The notes below the pieces were generated by a model that saw only the letters and a list, made by a program, of their open reading frames with translations, made no database searches and was not told where the DNA came from. 34,914 bases of DNA, from the NCBI GenBank assembly GCA_023261445.1, contig JAHFOX010000011.1:1-34914 (forward strand), given 5' to 3'. The translations under genes and the position numbers were made by a program. Positions 2,797 to 27,914 of the stretch are shown piece after piece (the stretch's first letter is position 1; each line of letters begins with the position of its first letter). This DNA is from Planctomycetota bacterium. GTDB lineage: Bacteria > Planctomycetota > Brocadiia > Brocadiales > Brocadiaceae.

Positions 2797-3612
2797 TTAC
2801 ACCGACTCCAGTTCAGCCTTTAACGCCTCTGCGGACTGGATGCGATTATTTGGATTTTCCTCCAGCATGCCTGAAATTATCCTGTTTAGTTTGTCCGGAA
2901 CAGACTTGTTGATTTCTACAGGGGGAGTGGGGGACTCCTGCCATAGCTTCCCTGTTAACACCTGATAAAAGACCAAACCTACAGCATATAAATCAGAGGC
3001 GGTCCCCATCCTGACCTTTTTTAGCACGGACTTTTCATTCTCTCCATCCGGGAGATGCCGCAGTAACCGAATCATTTCCTTCTGCTCCGGAGAGGCATAT
3101 TCCCTGCTCATACCACAAATAATTTCCCCTATTTTAATCGCACACTCAAGGTCTATCAGCGCCATCGTGCAATCGGCAGGATTCAGAATGAGATGCCCTG
3201 GTTTGATGTCGGAATGAATGTATCCTTTGGAATGCATGTGTTGTAATGGCAGCATAGTGCTGGAGAAATATTGAATCACACGTCCAATTTCATGCTGGTC
3301 TGGAAGTCCTTTCTTTTTGTAATATTCAACGACATCTTCTCCCTCGAAATGGGATATAACCAGATAATTTTGGGCTATTACCGAGTTATTATCCTTGCGC
3401 ATCATATCAGTGCCTTCTGCGAGTCTTGTGGGAATTTGCGGATGTGAAAAGAGGGGAAGTATTTTGTATTCTCTCGAATAGTTATTAGCAGGAGAGTACT
3501 TCATACCCCACTGCCTTTCTTTAAACTCAGGGTTACAGAGAACGGCATAATTTGCCCTGTGTCCCGGCGCTATCTTAAATTCTTTAAACAAATACTTGTT
3601 GATAGAATACAC
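2797..3612 (-). CDS. Divergent Hanks-type Ser/Thr protein kinase
   Basis: The product is a 271-residue, single-domain soluble kinase-fold protein with no membrane segment or sensor domain. Recognisable elements are the probable ATP-anchoring Lys38, helix-C Glu48 (SREYKIL), hinge YLVISHFEGEDV, catalytic loop HSDIKPGH (133-140), DLE in place of DFG (154-156), REYASPEQ in place of the usual APE segment (170-177) and SDLYAVGLVFYQVLTG (206-221). The invariant Lys, Glu and Asp residues survive, but the glycine-rich loop is barely recognisable and the metal-binding Asn of HRDxxxxN is His140. It may be a low-activity or atypical kinase, or a pseudokinase; substrates cannot be read from sequence. The GTG start at 3610-3612 is supported by AAAGGAA seven bases upstream. 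Direct repeats flank the gene, and a YvcK-family gene lies upstream on the same strand. Confidence 0.85.
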   Translation of the reverse strand: MYSINKYLFKEFKIAPGHRANYAVLCNPEFKERQWGMKYSPANNYSREYKILPLFSHPQIPTRLAEGTDMMRKDNNSVIAQNYLVISHFEGEDVVEYYKKKGLPDQHEIGRVIQYFSSTMLPLQHMHSKGYIHSDIKPGHLILNPADCTMALIDLECAIKIGEIICGMSREYASPEQKEMIRLLRHLPDGENEKSVLKKVRMGTASDLYAVGLVFYQVLTGKLWQESPTPPVEINKSVPDKLNRIISGMLEENPNNRIQSAEALKAELESV

Positions 3613-3637
3613 GTCGAGTTCCTTTCATTAGGGCGTT

Positions 3638-3695
3638 TTAAACACCTGCTTCTTCAAAACGCAGAACAGGCAAAGCTAACAATAAACTCAAAAAT
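3638..3695 (+). repeat. Direct repeat flanking kinase gene, copy 2
   Basis: This is the partner of 2589-2646. It starts 26 bases upstream of the kinase GTG codon, so it lies in the gene's leader. Confidence 0.75.
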
Positions 3696-3847
3696 CAAAA
3701 ATAAAATATTAAACTAGGTTGGGTTTTAAAAAGCAAAACAAAGCGACTTTTTCTTGTACTGACAGAAGTTTCACCCTGTCACTGATAACAACCCCTGACC
3801 CCCTTTCCTAAGTGGGAATTATAGGTCTCACCCATCTACTCTTCGAT

Positions 3848-3870
3848 GGTTCAATCTTGCAGATTGAACC
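3848..3870. repeat. Hairpin GGTTCAATC / GATTGAACC
   Basis: A perfect 9-bp stem encloses a five-base loop (TTGCA). A near copy lies at 3937-3960, and looser relatives of the GGTTCAA core occur at 8892-8920 and 10583-10602. Confidence 0.65.
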
Positions 3871-3936
3871 ACATATTTTGAACTGAGTAACGGTTTTTGA
3901 ATTACTATCATAACGTTAAAACAGGCTAAACGTTTC

Positions 3937-3960
3937 GGTTCAATCGTGGACGATTGAATT
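3937..3960. repeat. Hairpin GGTTCAATCG / CGATTGAATT
   Basis: A ten-base stem, including G-T pairs at the base, closes on a TGGA loop. It is the same family as 3848-3870, about 90 bases away, downstream of the HAD-YvcK gene. Confidence 0.65.
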
Positions 3961-4002
3961 GTCAAGGGTATTTTGCCTCGCCGTACAAATTGTGTCCATG
4001 TT

Positions 4003-5715
4003 TTATTCCGTCAAATGCTTCGCCCCTGCCAACATTGGCAAATTTGCATAAACCCTGCAAATTGAATCGGCAAGCTTATCGGGGTCGTGTCGGAGCAGGT
4101 CTTGCTTTTCCCAGAGAATACGCTTCTGATTGAGGTCTTCAACAAGGTCAGCCTTTTTGACGTTTACATTCAGATTATAAACGCCTTCATCCATTAAAAC
4201 CACCTCGGCGCCTTCTTTCTGGTATCTGTCGAGAATGTCTTTGCGGGGAATATTGTTATTAACGATGACATAATCAAGCACGCCTTCCCCAAGATATTTT
4301 ATAACAGCCTTAATGTGATCAGAGACCTTGTAACGATCCGTTTGCCCCGGCTGAGTAACAATGTTACAAACGTAAATCTTTTTTGCCTTACTGGCGCGAA
4401 TTGCGTTCCTGATACCAGAAACCAGAAGATTTGTTATGACACTCGTATAAAGACTGCCAGGACCAATCACAACAATATCAGCCTTCAAAATTTCTTCAAC
4501 GGTTTCCGGAAGAGGCACTACATCGTTACTTTTGAGGAAGACCCTTTTAATTGGCGATTTTCCCACGGCACGCACATTGAATTCTTCTTCTACATGCTTT
4601 CCGTCTTCAAGCTCTGCACAAATGTGGGTATTGGCAAGTGTTGAAGGAAGCACTTTTCCGCGAATGTTTAATATCTTGCTGGCCTTTTTAATGGCTTGCT
4701 CAAAACTGCCCGTAATATCCGTCAATGCAGTCATCAGTAAATTTCCAAGACTCATGCCCTCCAACGAACCTCTGTTGAATCTATACTGAAACAGTTGGTA
4801 TAACTCTCGCTCTTGTTCTTCGGTTTCAGAAAGCGCTACAAGGCAGTTTCTTGCATCGCCCGGCGGGAGCATCCCAAATTCTTCCCTTAAAACCCCGGAA
4901 CTCCTGCCAGAATCGGTAACGGTTACCACGGCGGCAAGATGCTTGCTATACGTTTTTGAACCTTCCAACATAATGGGAAGTCCTGTGCCGCCGCCTATCG
5001 CAAGTATTCTAAGCTTGTCAGGCGTTTTTCCAATATTTCTAAGCTGGAGAATCGTAGGAATCTGAAATATGCGTTTGATCTTGTGGTCTGGCTTGTCACA
5101 TTCATTTACAGCAGGTTCGTTTTTAAACCTTCCATGCATCATCTGTATAGTAGTCATACCAAGCGACTTGGCAATTCGCAGTTCTTCCCGCACCCTGTCG
5201 CCCACCATAATGGTTTCAACGAGGTTAAGATTGTGTCGCCCGGCAAGATTGCAAATACAATCTTCCATGAGAAGTCCTATCTCCTGGTCGTTGATTACAA
5301 TTTCATCAAAGTATGGTTTCAGTCCGAGTATATTTATCTTTTTTTCCTGTCGTTCGTGAACGCCCACAGTCAACAGGAAAAGTTTATAGCCCCTTTCCTT
5401 CAATTCCTTGAGTGTATGAACAACATCAGGAAACGGTTTGATTTCGGACACTTCGCTGCTGTTGTATGCCTTATAAGCAATGTTGACCAATTTATTATCT
5501 GCATGATATTTATTTACTATTTCATTAAATACTAGATGATACGGACCGTGTTTTTCTGTAAGTTCCTTTTGTAACTGATAAGCATCTTCTTCCGTACAAG
5601 GCAATCCCGCCTCGACCATTGCCTTGGCGGCGCGCCTTCTGGATGCGTCTATAAGCGACCCTGTGCAATCGTACAAGGTGTCATCCAAATCAAAGATTAC
5701 TGCTTTTATTTTCAT
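4003..5715 (-). CDS. HAD-family hydrolase fused to YvcK/CofD-like protein
   Basis: This 570-residue protein joins two families. Residues 1 to about 215 are a HAD-like phosphatase: motif I FDLDDTLYD (Asp9, Asp11), motif II LLTVG (Thr116) and motif IV VGDRVREEL (Asp173). Residues about 235-560 match the YvcK/gluconeogenesis-factor branch of the CofD fold: LAIGGGTGLP (238-247), TVTDSGRSSGVLREEF (265-280), PPGDARNCL (284-292), GMSLGNLL (320-327) and GPGSLYTSV. YvcK proteins bind UDP-sugars and influence cell-wall metabolism and carbon use in Firmicutes and mycobacteria, where Hanks kinases can phosphorylate them. The frame is continuous across the junction, so the fusion is not an obvious assembly effect. 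The ATG at 5713-5715 has GAGG nine bases upstream. The nfi gene ends 13 bases before this start, so the two are probably cotranscribed. The HAD substrate is unknown. Confidence 0.9.
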   Translation of the reverse strand: MKIKAVIFDLDDTLYDCTGSLIDASRRRAAKAMVEAGLPCTEEDAYQLQKELTEKHGPYHLVFNEIVNKYHADNKLVNIAYKAYNSSEVSEIKPFPDVVHTLKELKERGYKLFLLTVGVHERQEKKINILGLKPYFDEIVINDQEIGLLMEDCICNLAGRHNLNLVETIMVGDRVREELRIAKSLGMTTIQMMHGRFKNEPAVNECDKPDHKIKRIFQIPTILQLRNIGKTPDKLRILAIGGGTGLPIMLEGSKTYSKHLAAVVTVTDSGRSSGVLREEFGMLPPGDARNCLVALSETEEQERELYQLFQYRFNRGSLEGMSLGNLLMTALTDITGSFEQAIKKASKILNIRGKVLPSTLANTHICAELEDGKHVEEEFNVRAVGKSPIKRVFLKSNDVVPLPETVEEILKADIVVIGPGSLYTSVITNLLVSGIRNAIRASKAKKIYVCNIVTQPGQTDRYKVSDHIKAVIKYLGEGVLDYVIVNNNIPRKDILDRYQKEGAEVVLMDEGVYNLNVNVKKADLVEDLNQKRILWEKQDLLRHDPDKLADSICRVYANLPMLAGAKHLTE

Positions 5716-5728
5716 AGATAAAACATCC

Positions 5729-6430
5729 TCAAGGTGAATGTGATTTCTCTCTTAATCTATTTACAAGCAGATGCGCCTGTCGTATTGGCTCGGGAATACG
5801 GTATCCCCGGCAAGTCTTTAATGCAATGCGGATAGCAAATGCCAGATTTGTCTTATGTCCCGGCGATACATAGACAGGGCTGGTGTTCGTTTTCGTCCTG
5901 AGTACAGCCCCAACAATCTTCTTTTTATAGAGAAGTTTTGAATAAGCGCCTGCGGTGTTTTTAACATGATTATATTCACCCACTAACCAACTTTTTGCAC
6001 ATCCGACAGATGGTTTATCGAGAATAAACCCCATGTGAGACGCCAAACCAAAGAAACGAGGATGCGCAATCCCCTGCCCGTCAAAAAGGATTACGTCAGG
6101 ATTATTTTTTAGTTTTTTAAATGCCGCGAGCAAGATGGGTGCCTCACGAAAAGAAAGCAGTCCGGGTATATATGGAAATTTTGCCTTGCCTATAGTCGTC
6201 GCATACTCAATTATTTCTAAATTTTTGTTTATTTTAAATACAACAACGCCTGCAAAAAAACGATCGCTGTGCTTGTCGTAAGAAACATCAGCGCCTGCTA
6301 CAGTTTGAAATTTTCCACAAGGTTTTTTTAAAATTAATAAGTCTTTTAAAGTTTCCTGTATCCGAACGGCTTTCTTGTAATCTACACGCCACGAGTGCAA
6401 TTGCTTAAATTTCACCTCGGAATACCTCAT
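5729..6430 (-). CDS. nfi: Endonuclease V (deoxyinosine 3' endonuclease)
   Basis: The 233-residue enzyme nicks DNA near deoxyinosine and other deaminated bases. Family signatures are complete: AGADVSY (first metal Asp), YIPGLLSFREAP (catalytic Glu), DGQGIAHPRFFGLASHMG (second metal Asp and DNA-wedge region), PVYVSPGHKTNL and YRIPEPIRQAH. The length is normal. It starts at ATG 6428-6430 with no obvious ribosome-binding site. It lies between scpB (88 bases upstream, with a hairpin in the gap) and HAD-yvcK (13 bases downstream). Confidence 0.95.
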   Translation of the reverse strand: MRYSEVKFKQLHSWRVDYKKAVRIQETLKDLLILKKPCGKFQTVAGADVSYDKHSDRFFAGVVVFKINKNLEIIEYATTIGKAKFPYIPGLLSFREAPILLAAFKKLKNNPDVILFDGQGIAHPRFFGLASHMGFILDKPSVGCAKSWLVGEYNHVKNTAGAYSKLLYKKKIVGAVLRTKTNTSPVYVSPGHKTNLAFAIRIALKTCRGYRIPEPIRQAHLLVNRLREKSHSP

Positions 6431-7077: not shown

Positions 7078-7809
7078 CTATTTAATTTCCCACGCTGAAG
7101 GTTGAACAATACCTTTAATTTTGCCAATAGCCTCTAGTACTGCGTTTATTACCGCCTTTGTGGATATTGTAGCTCCCGTTACTGCCGTAATCTTTTCCGT
7201 GTCTTTTACCTTAGACACGATAAGTTGGTTATATGTTTTTTGCTTAAATTGTTCCTGAAACCACGGACGAGCATTATTTCTTGTTCTTTTTAACAATCCA
7301 AATTTTCTTATTCTTTCCGGCTGTCTGAAAGGCGATAATTTCCAAGCCTCATCACTATCCCAGTCTATAGATTTCAATTCCCTGCCATAGATCAGACTGT
7401 ACAAGGTATTGGTGCTTTCCGCCTCTGTCATCTTTGTGCCTAGACCCGGCGTCTCTCGTTGCGCAAGGATATTAATCCCAAGTATCTTTTCGAGATTTGG
7501 ATCAATTCCCACCATAACTTTGATTTTGCTTGAATATCCCTGCGCTTCTCCGCAGGCTGCATAACCAATAAGATTGCCAGCCTTGTTTGTGCCCTTGTAA
7601 ACGCGATTATGCTCTGCTATTTCTGGCGGCGTAATTTCCACTGGTTGATCTTCCAAGCCGGGAAGGACTGTGTACAGCGCCTCTGCTAGTGAGGCTAATT
7701 CCTTTTTTTTAATAGTGTCTTTCGTAAGTAAAAAAGTTGACGATACACCTACAGAGGCTAAAAGAGAGACTATGGTCAGTATGATTGTGTATTGTACTTT
7801 CTTCTGCAT
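7078..7809 (-). CDS. rnfG: Rnf complex subunit G (covalent FMN protein)
   Basis: RnfG is the membrane-anchored flavoprotein of the Rnf ferredoxin:NAD oxidoreductase, an ion-pumping respiratory complex. The 243-residue product has one N-terminal membrane segment (about 8-29), the conserved LAQRETPGLGTKM region and VTGATIST near the C-terminus, where Thr214 is the expected site of phosphoester-linked FMN. It starts five bases after rnfD and has an AAAAAGG site inside the rnfD end, indicating cotranscription. Downstream is scpB, not the usual rnfE. Confidence 0.95.
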   Translation of the reverse strand: MQKKVQYTIILTIVSLLASVGVSSTFLLTKDTIKKKELASLAEALYTVLPGLEDQPVEITPPEIAEHNRVYKGTNKAGNLIGYAACGEAQGYSSKIKVMVGIDPNLEKILGINILAQRETPGLGTKMTEAESTNTLYSLIYGRELKSIDWDSDEAWKLSPFRQPERIRKFGLLKRTRNNARPWFQEQFKQKTYNQLIVSKVKDTEKITAVTGATISTKAVINAVLEAIGKIKGIVQPSAWEIK

Positions 7810-7814
7810 CTATT

Positions 7815-8846
7815 TCAAACCTTTTTAATCTTAGTGCCGTATAGCCGTGGTTTCGTAAACCTATCAATAAGAGGCGTTGCCGTATTCATGAGTAATATAG
7901 AATAACAAACACCCTCCGGATAGCCGGAATAAAAACGAATTAGTGCTGTTAGCATACCTGCTCCAATGGCGAAGATAACAAGTCCGCGTCTTGTCAGAGG
8001 GGCCGTAACCATATCCGTAGCCATAAAAAATGCGCCCAGAATCAGACCGCCCGCAAAGACATGATAAAAAGGATTTTTAGCCCACGGCGTTGCTATTTGT
8101 GAAGGCAAAATTAAGACCATTATAAAAACAGTTGCTATGTAATATGCAGGAACGTACCATTTGATATAACGCTTGTAAATCAGATAAGCGCCGCCCAGCA
8201 ATAAAGCAATTGCGGACGTCTCTCCGATACAACCGGGAACATTTCCTAAAAATAATTGGGCAAAGTGGTATGTCTCCGCACCTGCTTCTTTAGCCAGCGG
8301 CGTTGCCCTCGTTATCGCATCCACAAATTTGCCTTCAGGGTCCACGCTGGTGATGTTATGAGCAAAATTACCAACGCCGTGTTGTAAGATACGCCAGTCA
8401 GAGTTAATAACTGCGGGATACGACACCTGCAAAAATGCACGCGCTGCCAAGGCAGGATTCCATATATTATTTCCCAATCCGCCAAAGGTGTGTTTTACAA
8501 TGGCAATGGCAAAGAACGAACCTACTACAGGAACATACCATGGAACGCTCGGCGGCAGTATGTATGCCAGTAAGATTCCGGTAACAACAGCGCTGCCATC
8601 CTTAACGGTATTCAAAACTGGCAGTTTTCGAAGCCTCAGGATGAGTGCTTCGGTGATGACGGCAGTTATGCAACCTAAAGAAACAATATAGAGGCAATAA
8701 TATCCAAACACTAAAACTCCTGCAATCCCAGCAGGAATCAGGGAAAGCACCACCGCCCACATAATTCTGGGAATGTTTTCTATATCCCGAATGTGCGGTG
8801 GCGCACTGACAATTAATTGGTTATCGGTTTGATTTTTGCTGGACAT
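7815..8846 (-). CDS. rnfD: Rnf complex subunit D (membrane flavoprotein)
   Basis: The 343-residue integral membrane protein of the NqrB/RnfD family has many hydrophobic segments and the family motifs GLGNNIWNPALAARAF (123-138), DAITRATPL (176-184; Thr182 is the probable FMN-bearing residue) and TDMVTAPLTRRG. It carries electrons within the Rnf complex between RnfC and RnfG. It starts at ATG 8844-8846; the ribosome-binding site is poor. The 208-base gap to rnfC holds a complex hairpin element, so the rnfC-rnfD junction is unusually loose for an rnf operon. Confidence 0.95.
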   Translation of the reverse strand: MSSKNQTDNQLIVSAPPHIRDIENIPRIMWAVVLSLIPAGIAGVLVFGYYCLYIVSLGCITAVITEALILRLRKLPVLNTVKDGSAVVTGILLAYILPPSVPWYVPVVGSFFAIAIVKHTFGGLGNNIWNPALAARAFLQVSYPAVINSDWRILQHGVGNFAHNITSVDPEGKFVDAITRATPLAKEAGAETYHFAQLFLGNVPGCIGETSAIALLLGGAYLIYKRYIKWYVPAYYIATVFIMVLILPSQIATPWAKNPFYHVFAGGLILGAFFMATDMVTAPLTRRGLVIFAIGAGMLTALIRFYSGYPEGVCYSILLMNTATPLIDRFTKPRLYGTKIKKV

Positions 8847-8891
8847 ATAAGTTTTTTTAGTTTGTCATGTATATTTGGTATTACACCCTTG

Positions 8892-8977
8892 GCGGGTTCA
8901 AGTTGCAAACCTGAACCCGCAATGGATGTAACTCAAACCTTCAGGTTTGACGAATCAAAGCTAAAGCTTTGAGTTAC
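8892..8977. repeat. Compound palindromic element between rnfC and rnfD
   Basis: First comes a perfect 9-bp hairpin GCGGGTTCA/TGAACCCGC (8892-8920). Seven bases later follows an outer stem GTAACT/AGTTAC (8928-8977) enclosing two neat hairpins: CAAACC-TTCA-GGTTTG (8934-8949) and CAAAGC-TAAA-GCTTTG (8956-8971). As RNA this would form a three-way junction. A decayed inverse copy is at 163-215. It lies between cotranscribed rnfC and rnfD, where it could act in mRNA processing or stability; that role is inference. Confidence 0.7.
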
Positions 8978-9054
8978 AGCGTATGCGCTTATATATAAAA
9001 CTAATCACCGAAAGCGACCTAATTAAATTTGTTATAATTTAAAATATCCATCAT

Positions 9055-10398
9055 CTACACCTTTGTCTTCTGTCGTGCTATCTCGGCTTTCGCAAATTTA
9101 ATAAGATGAACAATAGGTCTTTTGGATGGACAGATATAACTGCAACAACCGCATTCCTTACATTCCATAACATTATTTTCCAGCGCCAGATTAAACTCCT
9201 TTGCTTCGCAAAGAATGCTCAACTCGCTGGGATTAAGTCCGTACGGACAGCTATCTATACAACGCCCGCATCTTATACATGCATGCGACCGCCACTGCTG
9301 CGCATTTCTTAACACAAGGATGCCGCCAGTGCCTTTTACCGTGACAGCCATGTCAATATTACCCTGAGCAATGCCCATCATAGGACCGCCAAAGATAATC
9401 TTGTTGATATTTGTGGTAATTTGGGCTTCTTCTAAAAGCTGTTTTATAGGTGTTCCTATCGGTACCAAAAAATTTTGCGGATTCTCAACACCATCCCCTG
9501 TTACGGTGACTATCCTCTGGATTAATGGTCTTCTGAATTTTACTGCCTCATATATAGCAAAAGCCGTCCCTACATTAATAACAACAGCGCCTACTTCTAA
9601 CGGTAGTTGTGTTGGTTTAAATTCACGATTCAATGACGCTTTAATAAGTTGATGCTCCGCTCCCTGTGGGTATTTTACTTCCATAAGGTCTATTTTAATA
9701 TTTGGCTCATTCGATAAAATATCTTTGAAGAGATTATAAACATCCGTTTTATTTGCCTCAACGCCAATGTGTGCCTTTTTACAACCAATACACTTCATTA
9801 TTAGTTTTAGACCATTGATAATTTCGCTGGGTTTATCTATCATGAGGCGGTAATCACAGGTAAGGTAAGGTTCACATTCAGCGCCGTTCATAACAACCGT
9901 ATCAATTACCTTGTCTTTGGGTGGGGTGAGTTTCACGTGGGTGGGAAAGGTAGCGCCTCCTAAACCCACAATACCAGCCGATTGGATACGTTGTTTAATC
10001 TCATCAGGAGAAATTTGGCCTGTATCCGAAGACTCATTAGCGCCTTCTATCCATGTATCATCTCCGGAATTTTCTATCATAACAGCAGGAGATTTTATAC
10101 CTGTAACAGGATGATGCCATGGTATGACGTCTATTACTTTACCTGAAACCGAAGCATGTATATTTGCGGATACAAATCCCTGCGCCTCACCTATCAATTG
10201 CCCTTTTTTAACTGTATCCCCCTTTTTAACATTTGGCTTGGCTGGAGCGCCAATATGCTGATTCATAAACAAATACACGGTCTTGGGGGATATAGAAGGT
10301 ACCTCCTTTTTGCTACAGGTAAGATTTTTGCCGTCTTCTTTTGGATGGATTCCACCAACAAAGGTTTTTAATTTCGATTTAATGAGAGTAGTCGTCAT
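9055..10398 (-). CDS. rnfC: Rnf complex subunit C (NADH/ferredoxin-side iron-sulfur protein)
   Basis: RnfC is the peripheral subunit that binds FMN and NAD(H) and passes electrons to the membrane part of Rnf. The 447-residue protein has the N-terminal GGIHPKEDGK region, a biotinyl-like hairpin (KKGDTVKKGQLIGEAQGFVS), the glycine-rich GIVGLGGATFPTHVKL, NGAECEPYLTCDYRLM, and two C-terminal 4Fe-4S motifs, CIRCGRCIDSCP (374-385) and CKECGCCSYICPS (413-425). The size is compact and typical. I start at ATG 10396-10398; the longer frame to 10434 is made from an interspersed repeat. No convincing ribosome-binding site is present. Confidence 0.95.
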   Translation of the reverse strand: MTTTLIKSKLKTFVGGIHPKEDGKNLTCSKKEVPSISPKTVYLFMNQHIGAPAKPNVKKGDTVKKGQLIGEAQGFVSANIHASVSGKVIDVIPWHHPVTGIKSPAVMIENSGDDTWIEGANESSDTGQISPDEIKQRIQSAGIVGLGGATFPTHVKLTPPKDKVIDTVVMNGAECEPYLTCDYRLMIDKPSEIINGLKLIMKCIGCKKAHIGVEANKTDVYNLFKDILSNEPNIKIDLMEVKYPQGAEHQLIKASLNREFKPTQLPLEVGAVVINVGTAFAIYEAVKFRRPLIQRIVTVTGDGVENPQNFLVPIGTPIKQLLEEAQITTNINKIIFGGPMMGIAQGNIDMAVTVKGTGGILVLRNAQQWRSHACIRCGRCIDSCPYGLNPSELSILCEAKEFNLALENNVMECKECGCCSYICPSKRPIVHLIKFAKAEIARQKTKV

Positions 10399-10409
10399 TT
10401 TCAGATAAT

Positions 10410-10487
10410 CACAGCGTGGTGGAGCCACAACCAAAAATAGAACACAGATTACACAGATTAAGCGGATTTACACAGATTTTAATATGT
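10410..10487. repeat. ACACAGATTA interspersed repeat, copy 2
   Basis: This is the partner of 2324-2396, with one additional ACACAGATT unit. It begins 12 bases upstream of the rnfC start, within its leader. Confidence 0.75.
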
Positions 10488-15916: not shown

Positions 15917-17359
15917 TTATTCTTTCACTACCGTTACACTTACCTGTGTCTTTAAATTGCCGTCCTTGAATTTAACAGTCGCATTACCAACCTTCTCCTT
16001 GGCGGTTACCATAAACACTGCTTCGCCGTTTGCATCCGTTGCCTGTTTCTTTGGCGAAACCTTTATGTATTCCTTACTATCGCCAGCAACCTTTGCTTTT
16101 ACAGTATCACCTTCTATCGGACAGCCTCCATTGCCAGTTACCGTTATAGTTACTATATTACCTTCTTCTTTACTGAGTGTAAGCTCAGATGGGGACGCCT
16201 CAATATCCACAGCCGCTTCGCATGGTGTTGGTGTGGCAGTGGGTGTAGGAGTTGGTGTTTCCGTTGGCGTAGCGGTTGGAGTTGGCGTCGGCGTTGATTG
16301 TACAACATCGGTGGCGTACTTAAGGTTATCGTTAGTATAATCATAATAGCTAATATGCACCTTGTCCGACGAGTCAAGCGCTACAGAAGAATATTGACCT
16401 ACATTTCCTGTGCTATCCATAATTGTCGCTATCCATGAGCCCGAGGCATTAGTGGTGTACTTTAGATCGCCATTAACAGCATCGTGATAGCTAATACCTG
16501 CCTTGCCTGAAGAATCAAGCGCAATAGAGGAATATTGACCCACATCTCCTGCGCTATCTACAGTTGTTGTCGTCCATGAACCTGAGACGTTTGTGGCATA
16601 CGCAAGGTTAGAGTAATAATAGTAACTGATATGAACCTTGCTTAATTTGTCAACTGCCAGTGAGGTATATTGTCCCACATTTACATAATAATCAACAGTT
16701 GTTGTTACCCATGAACCAGAGTCATTTGTGGCGTACTTGAGGTCTTCATTTGTGCTGTCATAATAACTGATGTGTACCTTGCCTGATGTATCAACTGATA
16801 TAGAGGTATATTGACCTACATTTCCAGCACTATCAACAATTGTCGTTACCCATGAGCCAAAGGTATTAGTGGCATAAACAAGATCGCTGTTAGTAACATC
16901 ATAATAGCTAATGTGTATCTTGTCTGACGAGTCAATCGCTATAGAGGTATATTGTCCCACATTTAAGTTACTGTCAACAGTTGTTACTGTCCATGAACCA
17001 GAGATATTTGTAGCGTACTTGAGGTCGCCATTAGTAACATCATAATAGCTTATGTGTATCTTGTCTGACGAGTCAATCGCTATGGAGGTATATTGTCCCA
17101 CATTTCCACTACTTTCCACTGTCGTTGTTACCCATGTGCCAGACACATTCGTAGCATACTTAAGGTCGCCGTTAGTAGCATCCCAATAGCTAATATGTGA
17201 TTTGTCTGAGGTATCAAGCGCTATGGAGGTATATTGGCCTACGTCTCCGCTGCTATCCACAGTTTCGACTGTTGTTGCAAAAACATTCGCAACAATAACA
17301 AAAGAAACAAGAACGGCAAGGACCAAAAATATTCCCGACAAAAATCTCTTGCTACCCAT
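15917..17359 (-). CDS. Exported seven-repeat beta-propeller-like protein with Pro/Thr linker and Ig-like domain
   Basis: The 480-residue protein has a signal peptide (about 1-28). Residues 39-351 are seven tandem repeats of 47 residues (the fifth has 45 and the last is cut short). The consensus runs VGQYTSIALDSSDK, HISYYDxTNGDLKYATN, SGSWxTTTVDSxG. Seven units, with the missing last strand of repeat 7 supplied by the N-terminal TTVETVDSSG, fit a closed seven-bladed propeller. A Thr-Pro linker (356-379) joins this to a 101-residue beta-rich domain resembling bacterial Ig-like (invasin-type) modules. It is probably secreted or surface-exposed and binds a ligand or matrix; no enzymatic motif is visible. 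The ATG at 17357-17359 has a very strong AAGGAGGAGG site. Confidence 0.85.
   Translation of the reverse strand: MGSKRFLSGIFLVLAVLVSFVIVANVFATTVETVDSSGDVGQYTSIALDTSDKSHISYWDATNGDLKYATNVSGTWVTTTVESSGNVGQYTSIAIDSSDKIHISYYDVTNGDLKYATNISGSWTVTTVDSNLNVGQYTSIAIDSSDKIHISYYDVTNSDLVYATNTFGSWVTTIVDSAGNVGQYTSISVDTSGKVHISYYDSTNEDLKYATNDSGSWVTTTVDYYVNVGQYTSLAVDKLSKVHISYYYYSNLAYATNVSGSWTTTTVDSAGDVGQYSSIALDSSGKAGISYHDAVNGDLKYTTNASGSWIATIMDSTGNVGQYSSVALDSSDKVHISYYDYTNDNLKYATDVVQSTPTPTPTATPTETPTPTPTATPTPCEAAVDIEASPSELTLSKEEGNIVTITVTGNGGCPIEGDTVKAKVAGDSKEYIKVSPKKQATDANGEAVFMVTAKEKVGNATVKFKDGNLKTQVSVTVVKE
16307..17245 (-). repeat. 141-bp tandem repeat inside the propeller gene
   Basis: Seven in-frame units of about 141 bases encode the 47-residue blades. 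Units 2 and 3 are almost identical at the DNA level, suggesting recent duplication or conversion; unit 5 is six bases shorter. Confidence 0.85.
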
Positions 17360-25205: not shown

Positions 25206-26095
25206 GCAAATTAACAGAAAATATTACCGAAAACACTATTGATAATTTTAAAAGAAGGCATTTTGATGTAACTTATCCCAATGGTATTTTGCGTCTCGGC
25301 AGTAAAACATATATCATGGGGATTCTAAACGTAACCCCAGATTCGTTTTATGATGGCAAGCGATATAATACCATAGAAAATGCCATTGACCATGCGATTA
25401 GAATGGCAGAAGAAGGCGCTGATATTATTGATGTCGGCGGCGAATCTACAAGGCCCGGTGCATATCCCATATCGGAGAAAGAAGAAACAAAGAGAATAAT
25501 TCCTGTTATAAAAATACTGTCGAAAAAGATCGGTTTGCCTATTTCTGTTGATACTTATAAGGCAAAAGTGGCGGAAAAGGCGATTGATGCGGGGGCATCA
25601 ATTATAAACGACATTGGCGGTTTACAAATGGATAAAAAAATGGCAAAGGTTGCCGACAAGGCAAAGGTACCTGTTATAATTATGCACAAAAAAGGCACAC
25701 CCAGAACAATGCAAAAATACCCAGTACGCAAAAATTTATTATCCGAGATAATGTCGTATCTAAAAAAATCAGTGTCTATTGCAATTGGTGCTGGAATAGA
25801 TAAAAACAAAATCATCATTGATCCTGGTGTTGGTTTTGGCAAAACCATGCAGCAAAATTTCCAAATCATCAAGAAGCTATGTGAATTTAAAAATATGGGA
25901 TTCCCCATATTAGTTGGCACATCACGGAAAAAGTTTATTGGTACTGTTTTGAAGGCCCCCGTTCAGGAATGTCTGTACGGTACGCTTGCAACCGTAGCCG
26001 TTGCAGCTATGAATGGCGCTCATATTGTACGGGTTCACGATGTATATGAAACTGTTCAAATTGTAAAGATTTGTGATGCAATCAGGAATAGCTAA
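25202..26095 (+). CDS. folP: Dihydropteroate synthase
   Basis: FolP condenses p-aminobenzoate with the pterin pyrophosphate to form dihydropteroate in folate synthesis. The 297-residue TIM-barrel enzyme has MGILNVTPDSFYDG, DVGGESTRPGA, PISVDTYKA, IINDIGG, IDPGVGFGKT, VGTSRKKFIG and the terminal RVHDV. I use GTG 25202 (four-base overlap with lptE, GAGGA upstream); TTG 25199 is adjacent. folE at the end of the same unit supplies an earlier pterin step. Confidence 0.95.
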   Translation: MSKLTENITENTIDNFKRRHFDVTYPNGILRLGSKTYIMGILNVTPDSFYDGKRYNTIENAIDHAIRMAEEGADIIDVGGESTRPGAYPISEKEETKRIIPVIKILSKKIGLPISVDTYKAKVAEKAIDAGASIINDIGGLQMDKKMAKVADKAKVPVIIMHKKGTPRTMQKYPVRKNLLSEIMSYLKKSVSIAIGAGIDKNKIIIDPGVGFGKTMQQNFQIIKKLCEFKNMGFPILVGTSRKKFIGTVLKAPVQECLYGTLATVAVAAMNGAHIVRVHDVYETVQIVKICDAIRNS

Positions 26096-26913
26096 TGTTT
26101 GAAAGAATATCTGAACTATTCGAAAATGTGAATATCTGGATGATTGGAAGATCTCTGGGCGAGATATTTCTTATCTATATGGTGGTTTATGTTGTATTAA
26201 GAATTATGCAGGGCACCCGTGGGACTAGCATGCTAAGGGGTTTGGCATTCATTATCGTATTGATCTCCGTTGGTGTGCTGTTCTTTGTAAGAAAGTTACA
26301 ACTATATACAATCAATTGGCTGATAACTGAATTTGTTCCTGTATTTATCATTCCTATAATTATTCTATTCCAACCTGAGTTCCGACGTGCATTATTGAGA
26401 CTGGGACAAAACCCTGTCTTTAACGTGTTTTTAAAATCTGAGTATCAGGTAACAAATGAAATTATAAAAGCTGTCAGCCTTTTATCCAAAAGCAAGGTTG
26501 GCGCGTTGCTTGCGATCGAGAGGGAAGTCGGTCTTGATAATTTTGTTGAAACTGGAACGAAACTGAATGCGGACGTGACTGGCGAACTGATAAGCACTAT
26601 ATTTTGGCCTGGTTCTCCTTTACATGACGGCGCAGTTATCATTCAGGAACAAAAATTAGTTGCCGCGGGATGCTTACTCCCGCTTACCGAAAATACAGAA
26701 TTGTCAAAAAGCCTTGGTACGCGACACAGGGCCGCTATTGGACTCACAGAAGAAACGGATGCCGTTGTTATCGTTGTATCAGAAGAAACAGGCACAATTT
26801 CAACAGGAGTCAGGGGCGTGCTGAAACGAGATATTGACGAAAAAGAACTGAAAAAGATGCTCGATGAATTGTCAACAGAAAGATTTAGCACTGCCAGGGG
26901 TACACAGGTGTGA
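26095..26913 (+). CDS. cdaA: Diadenylate cyclase CdaA (DisA_N domain)
   Basis: CdaA makes the second messenger c-di-AMP from ATP at the membrane. The 272-residue protein has three hydrophobic segments in the first 95 residues and then the DAC domain: FQPEFRRALLRLG, LLAIERE, the catalytic motifs LHDGAVII and GTRHRAAIGL, and VVSEETGTIS. The order and length match CdaA/YbbP. Its start overlaps the folP stop by one base, and the regulator-like ybbR gene follows with a four-base overlap. Confidence 0.96.
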   Translation: MFERISELFENVNIWMIGRSLGEIFLIYMVVYVVLRIMQGTRGTSMLRGLAFIIVLISVGVLFFVRKLQLYTINWLITEFVPVFIIPIIILFQPEFRRALLRLGQNPVFNVFLKSEYQVTNEIIKAVSLLSKSKVGALLAIEREVGLDNFVETGTKLNADVTGELISTIFWPGSPLHDGAVIIQEQKLVAAGCLLPLTENTELSKSLGTRHRAAIGLTEETDAVVIVVSEETGTISTGVRGVLKRDIDEKELKKMLDELSTERFSTARGTQV

Positions 26914-27914
26914 TAAAAGAAATATTTACGGGCAATATTCTCACAAAACTAATGGCGCTGGTTATGGCGGCGGCTCTCTGGTTATATGCAATTAATAGAC
27001 ATACAAGAGATCTGACGGAGATGGTCAAACTGTCTGTCTCTGTTCCTGAGGATGTTACTATACTTGAACAGAGCACTGAAGAACTTACTGTACATCTGCG
27101 AGGCCCGCAAAATAGTATTGACAGTGTTGAAGACATGATAAAAAATCGCAAGATTCTGGCTAAGTACATTGCTAAAGAATCTCCGTCTGGAATGGAAGAC
27201 CAGATAAAACAAACAATTCCTATAACAAGAGAATGCTTAAATCTGCCTGGTGACGTTAAAATGGTATCAGTTTATCCTGATAAATTTGATATATTACTCG
27301 GTAAATTACAGAAGAAAAAATTAAAGGTCAATTTACAGGAAAAAGGAGAACCTGCTATTGGGTATGTTATAGCAAATGCGTTCGTATTTCCGTCAGAAGT
27401 AGAGGTGACAGGGCCCCTAAACACATTGAAAGAAACTTCCGAAATAAATACAGTTCCGATAGATATTAGTGGAATAACTACTGACCAGAACCTTACGTTT
27501 CCTTGGAGGATCGGAATTGACCAGAAAGTAATACTAAAGCAAGGCAATAAAAACATTTCTGTGCCAGTCACATGCAAGGAAGACGTGCGGGTATGGCTGC
27601 AAATTGCGGAACAGCAAGACACAAAATATTTTGAGAAAATAAAGATTAAGGTGTTGAGACCTTCAGAATATCCTTACGAAATTAAATTGCAGGACGAATT
27701 CATCAAAGTAATGATAAAAGGCCCAAAACTCCTATTAGATAAGCTTAATACCGAAGATGTTGTTTTATATATTGATGTCACTTCACTAAAGCCGCCTGGG
27801 CCATATAAACAGCCAATAAAATGTGTTTTGCCAAAAAATATTGAACTTGTAGATAAGCTGCCTGAGGTGCGATTAGACCTAAGAGAAACCGTACGAGTAT
27901 CTGAGATAAAATGA
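26910..27914 (+). CDS. YbbR-domain protein (CdaR-like)
   Basis: The 334-residue protein has one N-terminal membrane anchor (about 11-28, LTKLMALVMAAALWLYAI) followed by extracytoplasmic YbbR-type beta domains. Repeated units contain patterns such as VTILEQSTEELTVHLRGP, FVFPSEVEVTGPLNTL and FIKVMIKGPKLLLDKL. In Firmicutes CdaR binds and modulates CdaA, and the two genes are adjacent as here. The GTG start at 26910 overlaps cdaA by four bases. I infer a role in controlling c-di-AMP synthesis. Confidence 0.9.
   Translation: MIKEIFTGNILTKLMALVMAAALWLYAINRHTRDLTEMVKLSVSVPEDVTILEQSTEELTVHLRGPQNSIDSVEDMIKNRKILAKYIAKESPSGMEDQIKQTIPITRECLNLPGDVKMVSVYPDKFDILLGKLQKKKLKVNLQEKGEPAIGYVIANAFVFPSEVEVTGPLNTLKETSEINTVPIDISGITTDQNLTFPWRIGIDQKVILKQGNKNISVPVTCKEDVRVWLQIAEQQDTKYFEKIKIKVLRPSEYPYEIKLQDEFIKVMIKGPKLLLDKLNTEDVVLYIDVTSLKPPGPYKQPIKCVLPKNIELVDKLPEVRLDLRETVRVSEIK

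Follow-up and report, generated by a model that had tools for sequence, protein, structure and literature searches.

A HAD phosphatase domain fused to a YvcK domain with an altered motif in Brocadiia

The window, meaning the whole 34,914-nucleotide stretch of Brocadiaceae DNA analysed here, contains a gene that is, on the evidence of its sequence, a true fusion whose product would be one chain comprising a HAD phosphatase and a YvcK domain (Table 1). The architecture, its conservation, its restriction to a single clade of domains and the change in its YvcK motif all emerge from comparison of predicted proteins. YvcK, a protein of cell-wall sugar metabolism, shares its chain with a phosphatase domain and has an altered active site in the anammox bacteria and a small number of their near relatives. 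The molecular role of YvcK/GlmR is still being settled, with GlmS activator, accessory uridyltransferase and UDP-GlcNAc sensor all under consideration; the fusion separates these roles in one protein, with ligand residues kept, the proposed catalytic motif changed and RapZ not found in Brocadiia. It is a variant of a well-studied regulator, not a new kind of system, and bears on how cell-wall precursor supply is controlled in anammox bacteria.

Table 1. Coordinates of the fusion gene, its predicted parts and the adjoining upstream gene in the window
Feature	Position	Strand	Details
HAD-YvcK fusion gene	4003..5715	minus	ORF, 570 aa, ATG start; Pfam and NCBIfam matches
HAD phosphatase domain	5032..5715	minus	residues 1-228 (about); D9, D11, T116, K126, D173, E178
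Short linker	5014..5031	minus	residues 229-234; gap between the aligned ranges of both folds
YvcK/GlmR domain	4042..5013	minus	residues 235-558 (about); DSGR 268-271; Y498, R542
Endonuclease V gene	5729..6430	minus	Pfam PF04493; ends 13 bp before the fusion gene begins

Architecture and active-site residues

The earlier note located the frame correctly without stating its strand: the plus-strand translation of the interval contains several stops, and the minus strand is open. Its reading of a HAD core and a YvcK core in a single frame is borne out, as all the residues it named are present and the Pfam and NCBIfam scores lie far above chance. Pfam HAD_2 matches residues 6-190 (E 3.6e-21) and CofD residues 237-524 (E 6.3e-101), and the NCBIfam YvcK model TIGR01826 matches residues 237-555 with 341.7 bits against a cut-off of 196, placing this half within the YvcK family. 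The characteristic motifs lie at residues 241-245 (GGGTG), 268-274 (DSGRSSG) and 284-290 (PPGDARN). No interruption of the frame was seen in any of 54 distinct fused proteins, each of at least 540 aa, that were left from 92 fused ORFs in the loci covered once shorter and near-duplicate ones had been dropped. The window is one contig of a 129-contig assembly, which might suggest that gene calling or assembly had artificially joined two neighbours; however, the identical open frame across the 54 proteins, including those of the single-contig genomes G010, G011, G013 and G042, refutes this reading and makes it vanishingly improbable. Long N-terminal extensions of two fusions (L040/L041, the same as L153/L152) were considered as a third domain and rejected, as by eye they look like GC-rich non-coding frame; the true start of these proteins most likely lies just before the HAD motif.

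An AlphaFold2 model built from an alignment of 59 window and locus proteins reached a mean pLDDT of 90.0 and a pTM of 0.90, so both folds and their arrangement are predicted confidently. The modelled YvcK half matches 2o2z (Z 41.7, 308 residues, rmsd 1.6) and the modelled HAD half matches PH1655 (2hoq; Z 22.2, 224 residues aligned, rmsd 5.3). By sequence, too, the nearest proteins of solved structure are BH3568 (2o2z, 2hzb) and the HAD protein PH1655.

The HAD half is apparently an active phosphatase, judging from its residues: D9, D11, K126, D173 and E178 are invariant in 54/54 fused proteins and position 116 is T or S, such that HAD motifs I-IV (DxD, T/S, K and the acidic motif) are present throughout. 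The usual form of motif IV is GDxxxxD. Its second acid is Glu in the fusions, as it is in 18/18 stand-alone HADs of the Brocadiales sister group, while 19 other HADs carry Glu (5/19) or Asp (14/19). The nearest described proteins, by best-scoring model and structures, are the TIGR02253-like HADs, PH1655 and NANP (2w4m, 4knw), which are alike in the HAD core motifs; the fusion differs from TIGR02253-like HADs in its GDxxxxE motif IV, its attached YvcK domain and its score of 115.6 against the TIGR02253 cut-off of 169.75. This was the best result among the NCBIfam HAD models, none of which exceeded its cut-off, and the PpaX pyrophosphatase model matched weakly (49.6 bits against 218). The sequence of the HAD half does not fix its substrate.

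In the YvcK half, the two ligand-binding residues are retained and the putative catalytic motif is altered. Two studies assign UDP-GlcNAc binding in Bacillus subtilis GlmR to Y265 and R301 (PMC7525490, PMC10128056); the corresponding Y265 and R301 of 2o2z align with Y498 and R542, which are kept in 54/54 fused proteins. The stand-alone YvcK proteins compared read DDGG at the motif site in 75/75 cases, a set comprising 15 from other Planctomycetota and 60 from the best 80 matches of a contig scan, mostly labelled Gastranaerophilales, after three short ones were dropped. The fusions instead read DSGR, with S (52), T (1) or C (1) at the second position and R271 in place of Gly in 54/54. The 'complete YvcK core' of the earlier note is thus complete as a fold and departs from the stand-alone proteins in this motif. 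A study of Listeria GlmR proposes D40, D41 and N198 as catalytic, with a triple mutant losing activity about 100-fold (PMC10128056). Through a constant offset of two to 2o2z numbering, these residues would correspond to D268, S269 and N429, so that the D40 and N198 equivalents are kept and that of D41 is lost. D41 is not known to be indispensable by itself, because the tested mutant was a triple one and Staphylococcus epidermidis YvcK (2ppv) has DNGG at this site; with D268, D287 and N429 kept in 54/54 fused proteins, uridyltransferase activity may persist. The loss of D41 would lower the case for an active uridyltransferase, not that for descent from the YvcK family. In addition, two GAK-system CofD-like proteins (L179, L180) have DSGG, so the motif site varies between subfamilies.

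The fusion can be set against several known systems. With the YvcK/GlmR family (TIGR01826; BH3568; B. subtilis and Listeria GlmR) it shares the full-domain fold, GGGTG, PxGD and the UDP-GlcNAc-binding Tyr and Arg; it differs in its HAD domain, in having DSGR for DDGG and in the finding of no RapZ/YvcJ gene in Brocadiia, and it carries P545 at the site of the phosphorylated T304 of B. subtilis GlmR. GAK-system CofD-like proteins (TIGR04357) belong to the same CofD superfamily and have the D-S of the motif in common, but the fusion has R where they have G, and membership was rejected at 127.7 against a cut-off of 340. CofD/FbiA of F420 synthesis (3c3d, 6uvx) has a distant common fold (Z 22.7-24.4; 17-19% identity), and membership of the CofD 2-phospho-L-lactate transferases (TIGR01819) was likewise rejected (33.7 against 257.45). 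The MtlD mannitol-1-phosphate dehydrogenase/phosphatase (7oct, 7ocu) provides, going by its entry titles, a precedent for sugar-metabolism and phosphatase domains in one chain, though its partner domain is unrelated to YvcK. Separately, one Brocadiaceae genome encodes a 689-aa CofD-like ORF with motif DDGL adjoining a nucleotidyltransferase-like match (L189; G008:C4:149000-158000), and three weak TIGR01826 matches in this genome represent one CofD-like ORF other than the fusion.

Distribution and descent of the fusion

The fusion occurs in 65/75 genomes of Brocadiia, the class that includes the anammox bacteria, with copies cut by contig ends or frameshifts in G005, G041, G045, G053, G067 and G071. 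The other 10/75 have no YvcK match whatever. Stand-alone YvcK was found in none of the 75 genomes, and every TIGR01826 match above cut-off falls in fusion frames. Across a phylum sample of 199 genomes, 11 of them Brocadiia, the fusion was detected in four genomes outside the class (G184, G199, G213, G227), whereas more than 50 genomes of this Planctomycetota sample have a YvcK match without the HAD part. These four belong to one other class, in which the fusion is present in 4/9 genomes and the other five have no YvcK match. Long frames with weak HAD matches in other Planctomycetota (G138, G193, G161, G075) were set aside, as they contain HAD only and YvcK was not found in them. A contig scan with the fused protein, from which the best 80 matches were taken, yielded an additional fused protein from a MAG (L077); related contigs among the matches listed are labelled Candidatus Brocadia, Jettenia, Loosdrechtia and Anammoxibacter. 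The search with the fused protein outside the phylum covered G263 and G264, the latter carrying L078, which stands next to contigs labelled Gastranaerophilales in the match ranking; 14 control genomes served for family searches, not for the fusion.

Within what was searched, the fusion appears confined to Brocadiia, one other Planctomycetota class and one MAG. The earlier note had named separate proteins in close relatives, or an architecture already widely described, as evidence to the contrary. No close relative was found with a separate YvcK, and no paper describing a HAD-YvcK fusion was found in the titles and abstract openings of literature on YvcK/CofD with HAD, anammox or Planctomycetota. 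As a side observation, G002, which represents a different genus, has a second fusion copy (L003; G002:C164) that is 100% identical to that of the window, its own copy being 82% identical; this looks like the product of cross-binned contigs.

One tree combined 27 of the 54 fused HAD domains with 18 stand-alone HADs of Brocadiales and 19 other HADs of Planctomycetota; the fused domains cluster together (94/93), and their sister group consists of the stand-alone Brocadiales HADs (100/99). A second tree, built from 22 fused YvcK domains and 28 of the 75 stand-alone ones, likewise unites the fused domains in a single group (100/99), which sits at the end of a long branch. A single fused group in each tree fits a single fusion event. 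In families f2 and f4 (e.g. G035, G026, G033), the stand-alone sister HAD comes immediately after the fusion. In Brocadiaceae it is unlinked to the fusion, and was located close behind an alpha-glucan phosphorylase gene in 6/9 loci examined, at a distance of 4 bp in L159.

Proposed function and alternative explanations

RapZ/YvcJ is the usual partner of YvcK, common although not strictly defining. Its family (PF03668) scored above cut-off in 0/75 Brocadiia genomes, with 6/14 control genomes positive. A 2020 paper indicates that yvcK of bacteria without F420 synthesis seems always associated with yvcJ or rapZ (PMC7525490), and the fused clade appears to be an exception to this association. In family f4, the fusion and the following HAD gene have glmM/glmU neighbours: an archaeal-type glmU (TIGR03992, 471 bits) and glmM (604.9 bits) lie convergent to them in L154, with equivalent clusters in L155 and L178. 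By coordinates, a glmU-like match lies near the fusion on the same contig in 10/16 f4 genomes with the fusion (G026, G029, G032, G035, G051, G055, G056, G057, G058, G060). As neighbours vary between families, gene context is no more than suggestive, and as related genomes are not independent, context counts are best treated as leads.

The kept UDP-GlcNAc residues, the missing RapZ and the glmM/glmU context together point to a sugar-phosphate substrate under UDP-GlcNAc control. We propose, as the likeliest reading but tentatively and with somewhat less than even confidence in the whole, that the YvcK half senses UDP-GlcNAc and controls the phosphatase in its own chain. The YvcK half would read the level of UDP-GlcNAc and regulate the HAD half, which would act on a hexose or hexosamine phosphate en route to UDP-GlcNAc, thereby adjusting precursor supply without a RapZ/YvcJ partner. 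Each element of this proposal, from sensing through substrate class to coupling, is deduced from the retained binding residues, the lack of RapZ and the neighbouring genes. Also in its favour are the invariant HAD motifs, the lack of stand-alone YvcK in the 75 genomes, the sister HAD next to the fusion in f2/f4 or behind alpha-glucan phosphorylase in Brocadiaceae, the PEP carboxykinase gene downstream in some loci and the confidently modelled domain arrangement. In a bolder version, which is unlikely, a YvcK minus its catalytic Asp and minus RapZ would serve as the built-in sensor of a HAD enzyme that drains or tunes hexosamine-phosphate flux; such a UDP-sugar-gated phosphatase in a single chain would let anammox bacteria and their relatives control the supply of cell-wall precursors in a way that differs from the GlmR-GlmS-YvcJ circuit known in Bacillus. 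The earlier note suggested that the HAD domain processes the UDP-sugar sensed by YvcK. HAD phosphatases normally cleave phosphomonoesters and UDP-GlcNAc has none, so the sensed sugar itself is an unlikely substrate and the suggestion is improbable as worded; the broader link to nucleotide sugars is favoured by the glmM/glmU neighbours and the conserved UDP-GlcNAc-binding residues.

The fusion may serve only co-expression or stability, holding together two functionally unconnected proteins, with the HAD half clearing metabolites as a general phosphatase. Broad substrate ranges are frequent among HAD phosphatases, and a related stand-alone HAD without a YvcK domain is present in many of the same genomes; against this, one fused clade spans 65/75 genomes and many genera, stand-alone YvcK was not found in any of the 75, the domain arrangement is modelled with confidence, and f4 has its glmM/glmU context. 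We regard this explanation as unlikely, if deserving of appreciable weight. If the uridyltransferase site works, the protein may be a two-enzyme chain instead of a sensor: the YvcK half would make UDP-GlcNAc as a working GlcNAc-1-phosphate uridyltransferase, and the HAD half would drive this synthesis by removing the pyrophosphate product or a phosphate that competes. GlmR of Listeria and B. subtilis can be cited in support, as can the full bifunctional GlmU, above cut-off in 0/75 Brocadiia genomes, the weak PpaX match, and Family I soluble pyrophosphatase, found in just 10/75, although membrane pyrophosphatases may cover pyrophosphate. However, the archaeal-type glmU beside the fusion means that another uridyltransferase exists in f4, all 54/54 fusions lack the catalytic motif's second Asp, and among solved HADs PH1655 and NANP come closest, not PpaX; such a chain is rather unlikely.

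The altered motif itself invites a further explanation, namely that the YvcK half has acquired a different chemistry, in which S269 and R271 serve in the transfer of some other nucleotide or phosphosugar, and that the HAD half dephosphorylates the same compound. DSGR in the fusions (R in 54/54) against DDGG in the 75/75 stand-alone proteins compared, the DSGG of L179 and L180, and the long branch of the fused YvcK clade are in keeping with such chemistry. Yet the UDP-GlcNAc-binding residues are unchanged, and the motif change might just tune or silence the old activity, such that we consider this explanation improbable.

Other features of the neighbourhood

The neighbours of the fusion differ between families. 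In the window these are the endonuclease V gene, possibly co-transcribed with the fusion, and a kinase-like ORF; the endonuclease V family is found near the fusion in 20/40 context loci. Downstream of the fusion, 7/40 of these loci have a PEP carboxykinase gene, and L142 has a pyruvate kinase gene. The kinase-like ORF, a short Ser/Thr-protein-kinase-like frame downstream of the fusion (2797-3612, minus strand), was rejected as a conserved partner, being absent from the other context loci. In Bacillus, PrkC phosphorylates YvcK. An inverted-repeat scan of 3600-4010 returned none at the settings used; an 11-pair stem with a 3-base loop is present at 3847-3871 (plus strand), in the gap after the fusion gene, around which terminator-like counts were no higher than in shuffles.

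Further from the fusion, at a distance of about 20 kb, a gene with a DisA-type diadenylate cyclase domain is followed by a YbbR-domain gene (26095-27914, plus strand), a pair that resembles cdaA-cdaR of Firmicutes with no glmM beside it. The Bacillus genes cdaA-cdaR-glmM make up an operon, and there is evidence there for a link between GlmR and c-di-AMP (PMC13046274). In its C-terminal part, an ORF at 15917-17359 (minus strand) has a match to NF052345, the anammox S-layer glycoprotein model, that falls far short of the cut-off (70.9 against 1400). Finally, rnfC, rnfD and an FMN-binding RnfG-like gene (7078-10434, minus strand) adjoin scpB, endonuclease V and the fusion; 16/40 context loci preserve this gene order.
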